A stretch of DNA of 33,709 bases from the IMG/VR virus record IMGVR_UViG_3300023223_001030, positions 1 to 33,709 of that record. One strand, 5' to 3'. This document shows positions 1 to 33,709 of the stretch, in pieces. The position numbers and the translations under genes were made by a program. Each line of letters opens with the position of its first letter. The first letter of the stretch is position 1. This DNA is from a virus. Under the pieces are notes generated by a model. It made no database searches. It was not told the DNA's origin and saw only the letters and a program-made list of their open reading frames with translations.

Positions 1-131
1 CAACCATTGCAGCAACTGGATTTGCAAACATGCAACATACTCACCAAGCTGCAAACACTGGTGGAATACTTGTAGCTACATTAGCATTAACTGCAACAGG
101 AACTAAAGACAATACTACATTCCTTAGAGGT
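1..131. repeat. Terminal direct repeat, left copy
   Basis: These 131 bases are identical to the last 131 bases of the window (33579-33709). The copy lies inside the tail-fibre gene, and joining the two ends restores one uninterrupted reading frame. This is the usual signature of a circular or circularly permuted genome assembled as a linear contig. A true terminal redundancy is less likely because it would cut a gene. Confidence 0.95.
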
Positions 132-1140: not shown

Positions 1141-1656
1141 CTATTTCTCTAATTCAGCTATTCTCTCTTCTAATTGTTGAATGTAATCAACCACCAACAT
1201 GCCTCCAATATTTCCAACCTTGAGCGGATAGTCTTGTTTGTATTGTTTAAAATCATCATCTACTTGTTTAAGTTCTTCCTGTAATGCAGTAATGGTTTGC
1301 TCTTTCTCTACTATGTTATTTAGTAAATGTGAATTATCTAATCCTGCATCTTCAACTTCTTTTTCCAAGATACTAATTCTGTCATCTTTTTGAGCTAACT
1401 CTAATTCAAAAAGTCTTTTTTCTTCATCAGTCAAAGGATTTTCTATCGGTGTAGATACGGAACTGATTTGGATAATTCCCCGTTCAATCAAAAATGTTAT
1501 TGCCTCTCCAAATTCTCCATCATCAATATTTCCTTCAACCCAAAAGTTTGCAACTCCCTTGACCCAAGATGGGATTTCTGTTTGTGCTTCTTGAGCTGAA
1601 ACTAATGGAATTAACAGAATAGGTAAAAGAAGAATTAGAAATATTTTTTTATTCAT
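1141..1656 (-). CDS. Secreted coiled-coil protein with thaumarchaeal surface-protein domain
   Basis: The protein has 171 residues. Residues 1-21 are a signal peptide (MNKK, a long Leu/Ile core, then VSAQ). Residues 28-63 contain IPSWVKGVANFWVEGNIDDGEF...FLIERGII, a short domain that I know as abundant in Nitrososphaeria secreted proteins. Residues 75-171 are heptad-rich coiled coil. It is one of only four genes on the reverse strand and sits between fibre genes, so it looks host-derived. A TTTATC box about 26 bases upstream (near 1682) would give a leaderless mRNA. The virion or the infected cell surface may display it. Its function is unknown; receptor masking or superinfection exclusion are guesses. 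Confidence 0.75.
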   Translation of the reverse strand: MNKKIFLILLLPILLIPLVSAQEAQTEIPSWVKGVANFWVEGNIDDGEFGEAITFLIERGIIQISSVSTPIENPLTDEEKRLFELELAQKDDRISILEKEVEDAGLDNSHLLNNIVEKEQTITALQEELKQVDDDFKQYKQDYPLKVGNIGGMLVVDYIQQLEERIAELEK

Positions 1657-3091: not shown

Positions 3092-3355
3092 ATGTTAGAA
3101 ATGTATGTAAATGAAATGTTAATTGAAATCATAATCGTATTGATATGTGCTGCAATAATAGGTGCTGCCACTTCATTTTTTGTTCTAATAAAATGTGTAC
3201 ACAAACAAGCACGAGATATGAGTATGATAAAAAAGGCAACAGCGTTTGTTCTAGGTAGACAAGTCCAGGAAACAAAATTATTACATCCTGATGAGATAGA
3301 TGTCATTGAGGATTTGGAAAAAATTTACAAAGACTTGATAGATGATAATTCCTAA
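3092..3355 (+). CDS. Single-pass membrane protein of the lysis region
   Basis: The 87-residue protein has one strongly hydrophobic segment at about residues 9-33 (IEIIIVLICAAIIGAATSFFVLI). A charged cytoplasmic-type tail follows and ends DLEKIYKDLIDDNS. A purine-rich AGGGGAAAAGG site sits just before ATG 3092, and a CTTTTATC box lies near 3050. It precedes the holin-like gene and the metalloprotease gene. A role as a second holin, an antiholin or a spanin-like partner is plausible from position only. Confidence 0.6.
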   Translation: MLEMYVNEMLIEIIIVLICAAIIGAATSFFVLIKCVHKQARDMSMIKKATAFVLGRQVQETKLLHPDEIDVIEDLEKIYKDLIDDNS

Positions 3356-3392
3356 TTAGTTCTTAAATCTGTATTAATTAAAAAATTTATCA

Positions 3393-3701
3393 ATGCAAGT
3401 ATTCGGATTAGAACCAATTATCGCTGCTATATTAATCACAATAGCAGGGGTATCTGTATCTGTTCTACTCGGATGGCTCAAAGGAAATAATCCAATTAAT
3501 GTTAGACAGGTAGTTGCCTCAGCTCTAATTGCGTTTATCATATCAATACAATTGGTAATAGCGGAATTAACTATACTACCTGAAGAGGTTGAGGGTCTAG
3601 TTCTAGGGGCTATTCTGTTTGGATTGATTGCACAAGTTGGTGGTATCGATTCAATGGCAAAGAGTATGGCACAAGCAGTAGCAAAGGCCCGAAAGGCTTA
3701 A
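3393..3701 (+). CDS. Holin-like small membrane protein
   Basis: The 102-residue protein has three hydrophobic stretches, at about residues 5-28 (EPIIAAILITIAGVSVSVLLGW), 38-60 (VVASALIAFIISIQLVIAEL) and 68-86 (VEGLVLGAILFGLIAQVG). A short, lysine-rich, amphipathic C-terminus (AKSMAQAVAKARKA) follows. Size, topology and a basic tail are typical of phage holins. A TTAAAT box about 28 bases upstream suggests a leaderless mRNA. The metalloprotease starts 15 bases downstream. The assignment is by architecture, not by sequence family. Confidence 0.6.
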   Translation: MQVFGLEPIIAAILITIAGVSVSVLLGWLKGNNPINVRQVVASALIAFIISIQLVIAELTILPEEVEGLVLGAILFGLIAQVGGIDSMAKSMAQAVAKARKA

Positions 3702-3716
3702 TCTTTCTTTTTTATT

Positions 3717-4361
3717 ATGACTGAACACAAATGTGAATTAACACAACTCAAATCAAATTCTCTAAAATTTACAGAAAACATTGAAGGAATTGATGAATGG
3801 CCTCACTCTTGGCCTGATGGTGAAATATCATACAGACTAAACAATCTAACAAAAGACATCACAAAAGGGCCTCATCAACATAGGGCAGTTACAGTATCAC
3901 TAAGAGCATGGCAGTTACGAATATCTAAATTAAAATTCAGACGAGAGAGAAATCCTGATGTAAAAGTTGATTTTGATGTATCATTTGAACCTCTATCTCA
4001 CTTTGATCATAGAGAAGGTGTATTGGCTCATGCATATTTTCCAGGTCAAGGTGATATTTCTGGAGACTGTCATATTAATGACAACTGGGATTGGGTCACA
4101 TCCTCTAAATTCCAAACACTTTCTAAACCTCCACTAATTCCAATTTTAATACATGAGTTTGGTCATTCTTTAGGATTAATCCATGACACATTTACAACTG
4201 ATAGTATAATGTATCCATCATTCAATTTAGGAGAAAAGAAGAATAGATTGGGTCCAAGAGATGTTTCTAGAATTCAAGAAAGGTATGGTGAACGAAAAAT
4301 CTCTCAGAGAATCATTGACTATTTCCGTAACAGACGAGACTTAGCTTGGGATTTTAGGTAA
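3717..4361 (+). CDS. Matrixin-type zinc metalloprotease, putative S-layer-degrading lysin
   Basis: The protein has 214 residues. It has a complete metzincin zinc site, HEFGHSLGLIH, with ligands H146, H150 and H156 and catalytic E147. The Met-turn follows at SIMYP (M165). Upstream, GVLAHAYFPGQGDISGDCHI (101-120) matches the matrixin structural metal loop. There is no signal peptide and no cysteine-switch propeptide, so release would depend on a membrane pore. The gene lies directly behind a holin-like gene. Nitrososphaeria have a protein S-layer and no murein, so a protease is a sensible substitute for an endolysin. A virion-borne entry protease is the main alternative. Confidence 0.85.
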   Translation: MTEHKCELTQLKSNSLKFTENIEGIDEWPHSWPDGEISYRLNNLTKDITKGPHQHRAVTVSLRAWQLRISKLKFRRERNPDVKVDFDVSFEPLSHFDHREGVLAHAYFPGQGDISGDCHINDNWDWVTSSKFQTLSKPPLIPILIHEFGHSLGLIHDTFTTDSIMYPSFNLGEKKNRLGPRDVSRIQERYGERKISQRIIDYFRNRRDLAWDFR

Positions 4362-19638: not shown

Positions 19639-20049
19639 ATGGAACTTAACGACTCTGAATTAATCATGACACAAATCTCTGCATTACACTTAACAGAACA
19701 TCAAGGTTTGAAATTATTTAGTAATTCAGATATTACTATGGCACGTTCAACATATTACGCCCTCAAAGGTAAAGTCTCAGCACTAACCAAACGTAGACTA
19801 ACAGACATTGCAAAAGAATTACCTGAAGAGCATCTCAAAACACTAGACCTCATTAATCTCATTGAACAGAAACTAATTGCAAAAATGATCACCACTGAAA
19901 AGGATACAGATATGGCAAGAATTGCTAAAATTATAGTAGAGATTCAGCCATACAAATCAGCATATCAGGAAGGGGCAAAGTTTGCATTACAGGAGTTAGA
20001 AAAACGTGAACTGGAACAAAAAGGTAATTCTCTATCCATCCTGGCATGA
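19639..20049 (+). CDS. Putative terminase small subunit
   Basis: The 136-residue protein lies directly before and overlaps the large terminase. It has a helix-turn-helix-like N-terminal half (TEHQGLKLFSNSDITMARSTYYALKGKV) and a helical oligomerisation half (KTLDLINLIEQKLIAKMITTEKDTDMARIAKIIVEIQ). This is the usual layout for small terminases, which recognise packaging-site DNA. The call depends on position and architecture. Confidence 0.6.
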   Translation: MELNDSELIMTQISALHLTEHQGLKLFSNSDITMARSTYYALKGKVSALTKRRLTDIAKELPEEHLKTLDLINLIEQKLIAKMITTEKDTDMARIAKIIVEIQPYKSAYQEGAKFALQELEKRELEQKGNSLSILA

Positions 20050-21835
20050 CAAAGAGGATGCTCAAAGAAAAGAGCAATCTCTGATTAGAAGACAACTGAA
20101 TCTAAAAACAAATAAAGAACTGCAGGAGGAACTACCACCACTCCCAAAAGACAGATTAGAATGGGAATACCACTGCAGGCCTAAAATCAAAGGACTCCCT
20201 AATCGATTGAAATATCTTCCAATGCTTCAAAGGATAGTTCAAGACAAGCACCCATTTATCATGGGAATAATTGCTAGACAGTGGTTTAAAACCACAATGA
20301 TTGGCTCTGATTTAGCATATGATGCAACAACACACTATGACTATGATCAGGTGTATCTAAATTTCAAAGAACCTAACCTCAAAACATTTTCAGAAAACAA
20401 ATTCAGACAAGATGTGTTTGGTACGTGGCCACTATCAAAATACATCAAATCAGCTAGTGGAAGACTAGGCTCAATGGAGAGGGTAGTAACTAACACCCGT
20501 AGTATTATTGATATGATGTTACCAGGTCCACTCTGGCAGAACCTACAAGGTAAATCACCTATGAAAATGAAAGTCGATGAAGCACAAGACCATGATTGGG
20601 AAGGATTTCAAAATGCACGAGATGCACAATCCGATACGTTTGGTGATGTAGACATTTGGGGAGTAGGAGGATTCACAGATACTGAATATGATAACATCTG
20701 GAAAACTACAGACCAGCGAGAATGGATTTACAAGAGAAGAGAAAATCACATGAAACATCCTAACATGTCATGGAGGGCTGATTTAGAGTATAATGATGAG
20801 GGACTAATTTATGATGATTACATGCTTGATGTACTAGATGGGGAGTGGGTTCCACAAATACCAAAGAACTACTCAAGGCACGGTTATCATTTATCACAAT
20901 TACAGAACCCTAGAATTCCACTAACTATGGAGAGTGCCATAACTGATTACAAAGTATCACCTGAATTTAGTATAGAGTGGAAGAGAGACCACGATCCAAA
21001 CTTTAATCTCATATTATACAGACGAAACATTCTAGCAGAAAACGTAGAGGGTGAACTTAAACCAATTACAGAAAAGATGATGCTAGCTTTATTTGATAAG
21101 AATATGTCACTAACAAGAGCTGAGGATGTAGATTATGAGGCAGGTGCAGTAATTGTTGGAATTGATTGGGGTGGTGGTGGTAAAACTATCGTATGGATAT
21201 GGCAGTGCATTGATGAGAAAGCTCCAATCTTCAAGTTACTCTGGGTAAAAAGAATGGACACAGGAGATACAGATGAACAATGGGAAATGGTAAAGAATCT
21301 AATTGATGCGTATGAACCTGACTTTATCGGAATAGATGCAGGAGGAGCATCAGATAGAGTACAGAAAACACAAAAGCGTTACACCAATAGGACTAGACGA
21401 GTAACATACCATCCAAGAGCTGAAGCACCACTCCCAACAATTAAAGAGGAAATTGCACAATCACTAGAATTACGATACGTTATAGATAGAACATTCTCAA
21501 TAGATAGAGTAATTGATCTAATCAAACACCCACACAAGGATAAGGACTTTGTATCTAATAGAATCATACTACCAGGAAAGAATCAAGAAGAACTCAAATG
21601 GATGGTAAAGCAGTTTGTAGCAATTGAGGGTGAGAAGGCCAAACTCAAATCAAGTGGTCAAACATACATCAGATATATTCATGCAGATAGTAATCCTGAT
21701 GATGCATTACAAGCATGTAACTATGCACTAATTGCTTGGCATATTTGGAAAGGATCACACACTGGACATGTTGGTGGCGTACTAGACATGACAAAGAAGA
21801 AGACTAATAGGTATGATAGTTCTGATATGATGTGA
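20006..21835 (+). CDS. terL: Terminase large subunit (packaging ATPase-nuclease)
   Basis: The protein has 609 residues and starts at GTG 20006, 44 bases inside the small-subunit gene. The ATPase domain has a divergent Walker A, ARQWFKTT (K95; Phe replaces the usual Gly), and Walker B MKVDEAQD (D191, E192). The RNase H-like nuclease domain starts at VGIDWGGGGKT (D387) and continues with FIGIDAGGASD (D444). Its length is normal. It cuts concatemers and drives DNA into proheads through the portal encoded at 25378. Confidence 0.92.
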   Translation: MNWNKKVILYPSWHDKEDAQRKEQSLIRRQLNLKTNKELQEELPPLPKDRLEWEYHCRPKIKGLPNRLKYLPMLQRIVQDKHPFIMGIIARQWFKTTMIGSDLAYDATTHYDYDQVYLNFKEPNLKTFSENKFRQDVFGTWPLSKYIKSASGRLGSMERVVTNTRSIIDMMLPGPLWQNLQGKSPMKMKVDEAQDHDWEGFQNARDAQSDTFGDVDIWGVGGFTDTEYDNIWKTTDQREWIYKRRENHMKHPNMSWRADLEYNDEGLIYDDYMLDVLDGEWVPQIPKNYSRHGYHLSQLQNPRIPLTMESAITDYKVSPEFSIEWKRDHDPNFNLILYRRNILAENVEGELKPITEKMMLALFDKNMSLTRAEDVDYEAGAVIVGIDWGGGGKTIVWIWQCIDEKAPIFKLLWVKRMDTGDTDEQWEMVKNLIDAYEPDFIGIDAGGASDRVQKTQKRYTNRTRRVTYHPRAEAPLPTIKEEIAQSLELRYVIDRTFSIDRVIDLIKHPHKDKDFVSNRIILPGKNQEELKWMVKQFVAIEGEKAKLKSSGQTYIRYIHADSNPDDALQACNYALIAWHIWKGSHTGHVGGVLDMTKKKTNRYDSSDMM

Positions 21836-33400: not shown

Positions 33401-33709
33401 ATGGCTGATGAAAAGATCACAGCATTACCTGCAATCCCTGCAGTTTCAGGAGTAGATCTTTTAGCAATAGTTGATGATCCTTCTGTAACTCCAATTACAT
33501 CCAAAGGAACAATAGATCAACTTGCTACATTTTTAGCTGCTAACCCCATTACATTATTAAACAAAACACTAATCACTCCAACCATTGCAGCAACTGGATT
33601 TGCAAACATGCAACATACTCACCAAGCTGCAAACACTGGTGGAATACTTGTAGCTACATTAGCATTAACTGCAACAGGAACTAAAGACAATACTACATTC
33701 CTTAGAGGT
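33401..33709 (+). CDS. Tail fibre / receptor-binding protein, N-terminal part (continues at 1)
   Basis: ATG 33401 opens the 437-residue fibre gene, which continues through the circular junction to 1136. Only 33401-33578 is unique; the rest repeats the left end. The N-terminus KITALPAIPAVSGVDLLAIVDD is a typical virion-attachment domain (the 'ITxLPxxxxVxxxDLLxIVDD' pattern). An in-frame TAA at 33392 excludes an earlier start. Confidence 0.8.
   Translation, partial: MADEKITALPAIPAVSGVDLLAIVDDPSVTPITSKGTIDQLATFLAANPITLLNKTLITPTIAATGFANMQHTHQAANTGGILVATLALTATGTKDNTTFLRG
33579..33709. repeat. Terminal direct repeat, right copy
   Basis: This is identical to 1-131. One copy should be removed to obtain the 33,578-bp circle. 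Confidence 0.95.

Follow-up and report, generated by a model that had tools for sequence, protein, structure and literature searches.

How do viruses leave S-layered archaea other than by pyramids? The question is open. A holin acting together with an S-layer protease was put forward for archaeal viruses in words, with no gene named (Quemin and Quax 2015, PMC4456609), in a review which also stated that no molecular mechanism had yet been proposed by which archaeal membranes could be completely disrupted. For archaeal viruses, a survey of viral lytic proteins from 2025 covers pseudomurein enzymes, PVAP and putative holins called on the basis of structure, and does not use the terms metallopeptidase or peptidase M (PMC12596118). 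A glycosyl hydrolase plus a holin-like protein have been suggested for HRTV-DL1 (PMC10384203), and holins and matrixins both go unmentioned in a study of elements integrated into Thaumarchaeota genomes (PMC6563490). The N. maritimus S-layer covers almost all of the cell surface and has an apparently calcium-dependent role in cell shape (PMC11153153). Here we analyse a row of two membrane-protein genes and a metalloprotease gene in a virus genome, which supplies candidate genes for the 2015 proposal. The window, meaning the whole stretch of DNA analysed, is the entire 33709-base IMG/VR record IMGVR_UViG_3300023223_001030.

Results and discussion

Genome and host

The genome is complete because its first bases recur at its right end as a direct terminal repeat of 131 bp (Table 1), leaving ~33.58 kb of unique sequence, and therefore no further lysis gene is concealed past the window ends. 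It encodes a terminase large subunit at 20006-21835 (Terminase_6C E 2e-5; phage terminases matched by tblastn), which identifies a tailed virus. No murein-degrading or other lytic enzyme was found by Pfam among 30 window ORFs, a set that covers not every small ORF.

A scan of species genomes found a single Nitrosopumilus MAG with two matrixin copies, at 77% identity to the window matrixin by the scan. At one of these loci (L007; loci are numbered with L), an intact matrixin gene lies beside a frameshifted holin-like gene and integrase fragments, flanked by ordinary cellular genes, a placement that may still reflect a binning or assembly error. This decayed pair, plus the Nitrosopumilaceae genomes that hold the three-gene order described below, supports on sequence grounds a Nitrosopumilaceae host, in keeping with the Nitrososphaeria host of the original prediction. 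At L008 5989-6627, also in a Nitrosopumilus MAG, the host chromosome carries an intact matrixin of the viral type by itself, without an upstream membrane protein.

Table 1 Features of the cassette and the genome ends, in window coordinates.
Feature	Position	Strand	Description
Left direct terminal repeat copy	1..131	.	Same bases recur at 33579-33709
Single-pass membrane protein, 87 aa	3092..3355	+	One hydrophobic segment, short N-terminus
Holin-like protein, 102 aa	3393..3701	+	Three hydrophobic segments (residues 9-27, 44-62, 68-86), basic C-terminus
Intergenic T-tract (CTTTCTTTTTTATT)	3702..3716	+	Directly before the matrixin start
Matrixin (Peptidase M10), 214 aa	3717..4361	+	PF00413, no signal peptide
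Right direct terminal repeat copy	33579..33709	.	Repeats bases 1-131

Layout of the cassette

The single-pass protein, three-segment protein and metzincin named in the original prediction do lie in a row on the + strand, with gaps of 37 and 15 bases between the three ORFs. The hydrophobic segment of the 87-aa protein is followed by a soluble tail, first basic and then helical, with an HPD/HPE motif at its end. Homologues occupy the same place in L022, L025, L055 and L066, and the similarity to the L022 homologue reaches z 10.4 over segment-wise shuffles. The 102-aa protein, which has homologues in L054 (41%), L055 (50%), the frameshifted L007 copy and several host chromosomes, has a basic first loop in addition to its basic C-terminus and an acidic second loop, as read from the sequence by eye; such a charge pattern may fit the N-out, C-in topology of class I holins. 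It is small, falls within the holin range of 1-4 transmembrane segments and adjoins a lytic-type enzyme, the matrixin, 15 bp downstream. We use the label holin-like because no holin family matched it in Pfam or PHROG.

A run of at least six T precedes the matrixin start in 11 of the 12 relatives that have a gap there, compared with 4 of 51 other gapped genes. The T-tract could be an archaeal terminator between the holin-like and protease genes, or part of a leaderless promoter. Elsewhere in the window, 1141-1656 (-) encodes a secreted protein with a coiled coil; its WVKGVANFWVEGNIDDGEF segment is similar to a domain that occurs in cell-surface proteins and matrixins (L031) of the host. We considered this protein as a spanin-like part and dropped it, as no viral relatives were found.

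The matrixin and its N-terminus

By sequence and predicted fold, the 214-aa protein is beyond doubt a true matrixin. It matches PF00413 with an E-value of 1.1e-26, scoring 94 bits where the cut-off is 24, and stromelysin-1 with a phmmer E-value of 1.5e-18. The zinc motif HEFGHSLGLIH spans residues 146-156 and is followed by a Met-turn at M165; H146, E147, H150, G153, H156 and M165 are invariant across 20 aligned relatives, so the HExxHxxGxxH site and Met-turn are intact, as first described. The structure prediction that had been suggested as a check returned a matrixin fold, with an AlphaFold model at pLDDT 92.9 that superimposes on MMP-1 with a Z-score of 20.6 (rmsd 1.8 over 160 residues) and on bacterial karilysin with a Z-score of 19.8. 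This model, built from 19 sequences (pLDDT 93), replaced a poor one from 7 sequences (pLDDT 44). The protein has a basic helix at its C-terminus (residues 197-208). Pfam shows only the matrixin domain in the protein and no muralytic domain; the matrixin is endolysin-like at most by analogy.

The original prediction also held that the protease has neither signal peptide nor propeptide. The first half stands, and the second has to be revised, as ~25 residues precede the catalytic domain and are predicted to form an ordered beta-hairpin at residues 5-20. Within this extension, C6 is invariant in 27/27 signal-peptide-less viral-type relatives, 3-18 residues from the start, and the cysteine column is conserved in 19/19 aligned sequences amid variable neighbouring N-terminal columns. 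In animal MMPs, latency is maintained by a prodomain cysteine bound to zinc. The hairpin is possibly a latency switch by analogy with these enzymes, an attractive idea that we put no more strongly because the 214-aa protein lacks the PRCGxPD cysteine-switch motif, along with an MMP-sized prodomain; a PRCGxPD prodomain is not required of prokaryotic Peptidase M10 members. Alignments of the model to the proMMP chains 1slm, 1gxd and 1su3 reach back to model residue 11, a reading from range ends only that we do not count toward latency.

None of the viral-type matrixins has a signal peptide. Of 16 loci with host matrixins that are not of the viral type (L028-L043), 11 show a signal-like N-terminus by a hydropathy threshold; others have truncated or uncertain starts, and L037 seemingly has no signal. 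Judged from these N-termini, the viral-type protease is made for the cytosol. At L023 653-2283, in a Nitrosopumilaceae genome, a matrixin that lacks a signal peptide and bears an additional coiled coil at its C-terminus is encoded next to a gene resembling that of a CdvB/ESCRT-III-type protein.

A conserved membrane-protein neighbour

Scans located the matrixin in 18 further IMG/VR contigs, at 52-72% identity to the window's among the members compared, which reduce to 14 non-redundant viral loci besides the window. Directly upstream of the matrixin in 15/15 of these loci, window included, lies a gene for a 50-105-aa protein that has one or more hydrophobic segments, contradicting the possibility, raised at the outset, that relatives never neighbour a membrane protein. 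The partner has at least two segments in 11 of the 15 loci, compared with 6 of the 235 remaining ORFs at these loci (Fisher 3e-12, a P value that overstates independence because the 15 loci are related), and only one by the hydropathy threshold in the other four. Under a stricter threshold, at least two segments are found in 8/15 versus 3/235, and L047 falls below one segment.

The partners fall into families without detectable mutual similarity (window/L007; L003/L006/L009; L005/L014 and others; L002), and the pair occurs in at least four virus groups that have hardly any other genes in common: the window with L002; L006, L009, L011, L012, L014 and L045; L005, L015, L016, L047, L049 and L051; and the L067 provirus. 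Retention of a membrane-protein neighbour, through changes in both that neighbour's family and the genome around it, is the pattern of a lysis cassette.

We then searched 250 Nitrosopumilaceae genomes in reverse, using the window's two membrane proteins as queries. The order single-pass, multi-pass, matrixin was recovered in L055, L066 and L025/L064, where the matrixins match PF00413 at 2e-14, 5e-11 and 3e-14, respectively. In L055, the multi-pass protein is 50% identical to the window's, the matrixin is diverged, and the genes sit within a run of virus-like structural genes on a 776-kb contig. The single-pass protein lies directly upstream of the matrixin in L022; no viral relatives came from a scan with the diverged L022 protein.

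Outside these lineages, tblastn against INPHARED gave no close matrixin match, the best weak one being a Lactobacillus phage Zn-protease (E 0.1), and no PHROGs family matches the matrixin. Bacteriophage structural matches to the model are weak (Maribacter phage Colly_1 and Lactobacillus phage 3-521). A second, diverged matrixin is carried by G257, G258 and G259, the records of L017, L016 and L005.

Upstream of the pair, group B viruses encode a secreted protein (~340-385 aa) and a small one of 87-131 aa that looks secreted (L003 3559-5608, L006 3495-5507, L009 219-1687, L011 4237-5720, L045 4348-5630). Several of the group B secreted proteins contain an HExxH-type motif (for example HEIQH, HEIEH or HELYH) with no Pfam match. 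It is possible that group B carries a larger envelope-attack module.

Exit, entry or another role

We read the three genes, with a probability of about 0.7, as the lysis cassette of a tailed Nitrosopumilaceae virus, in which a holin-like opening would let the matrixin cut the S-layer and the cell burst. The hydrophobic protein upstream at every viral locus and the recurrence of the gene order in Nitrosopumilaceae genomes favour this exit through a holin plus S-layer protease, as first envisaged. Late in infection, the matrixin would build up in the cytosol, where the cysteine hairpin at its N-terminus and a low calcium level might keep it latent. The membrane would then be opened, in the manner of a holin, by the small multi-pass protein, possibly timed by the single-pass protein, and the protease would reach the space beneath the S-layer and cleave the S-layer protein. 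Loss of the lattice would cause the cell to burst.

The S-layer blocks entry too, and a virion protein requires no signal peptide. The matrixin could be a part of the virion, in its tail, that clears the S-layer on the way in, with the membrane proteins as unrelated neighbours or entry parts. The cassette indeed comes after tail-fibre-like genes in the window and in L067, so that its description as the end of the tail region holds for the window. It does not extend to the other viruses, where the pair adjoins the terminase or separates the capsid genes from those of the tail; in group C, the matrixin is found beside the terminase, not the tail. The protein is also free-standing, without fusion to a tail protein, and retains its small hydrophobic partner while all else changes. 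We favour exit and consider a role in entry unlikely, given a free-standing gene that is linked to a membrane protein but not, across all groups, to tail genes.

The pairing is not obligate, because the holin-like gene and the matrixin gene each also occur alone. The holin-like protein of the window type is present without a matrixin in L054, a 42.5-kb virus fragment, L057 has both membrane proteins without the protease, and several Nitrosopumilaceae chromosomes hold a lone homologue of the holin-like protein; the matrixin stands alone in L008. The lone homologues in L056, L058, L059, L060 and L061 have no phage genes nearby and are remnants or domesticated genes. Persistence of lone holin-like genes in several host genomes, and of intact matrixins in a Nitrosopumilus genome, one beside the frameshifted gene and one by itself, would suit a moron-type function or one directed at the host (superinfection exclusion, nutrient release or antagonism) that hosts later retained. 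We regard such a function as improbable: the matrixin lies beside a membrane protein in at least three unrelated virus groups, including a complete genome in which no other lytic enzyme was found, and a dispensable gene is not expected to hold that order. Least probable of all is an intracellular protease for prohead maturation or host-protein degradation, which would fit the cytosolic character of the sequence and the lack of a Pfam prohead protease in the window ORFs tested, but leaves the membrane-protein linkage unexplained, runs against the generally secreted, calcium-dependent nature of matrixins and a gene position not tied to the capsid gene, and is at odds with thaumarchaeal tailed proviruses maturing with S78 or chymotrypsin-like proteases (PMC6563490).

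Relation to known systems

The proposed lysis cassette resembles the holin-endolysin systems of phages, in which a small membrane protein likewise lies directly upstream of a signal-less cytosolic hydrolase and is swapped for unrelated ones; there the enzyme is a murein hydrolase, whereas here it is a zinc protease with a presumed protein S-layer target in an archaeal host. PeiW and PeiP of the methanogen viruses psiM100/psiM1-2 are likewise archaeal virus enzymes that act on the envelope of the host and for which no secretion route is known; their fold is unrelated to that of matrixins. Their target is pseudomurein, and no holin has been identified there (PMC4456609). PVAP pyramids (SIRV2, STIV) also take archaeal viruses out through the S-layer, but do so without a protease, as one large membrane assembly that pushes the S-layer aside.

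The nearest viral structural matches are the matrix metalloproteinases of insect viruses (granulovirus, ascovirus, entomopoxvirus), which are virus-encoded matrixins. They belong to eukaryotic viruses, act at the level of tissue and are not known to have a holin partner. Karilysin of Tannerella forsythia is a prokaryotic matrixin that is secreted by means of a signal peptide and has a very short prodomain with aspartate latency; the window matrixin differs in its invariant cysteine and lack of a signal peptide. The original prediction knew of no characterised example. None was found in the literature searched, although the idea of the mechanism itself dates from 2015 (PMC4456609). In that literature, which lacked most subscription papers, no paper linked a matrixin with archaeal viruses.

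Implications

A broader version of the exit reading, to which we give somewhat less than even odds, is that an exchangeable holin-like protein frees a cysteine-latched matrixin onto the S-layer. The genes would then form a general archaeal lysis cassette that is transferred between unrelated tailed viruses infecting ammonia-oxidising archaea, and host genomes would also keep the pore and protease genes separately. Should the cysteine at the N-terminus act as a switch, it would represent a new, minimal form of matrixin latency. Named, testable genes are now given in viruses of archaea that are central to the ocean nitrogen cycle, and the cassette could mark lytic capacity in metagenomic archaeal viruses.
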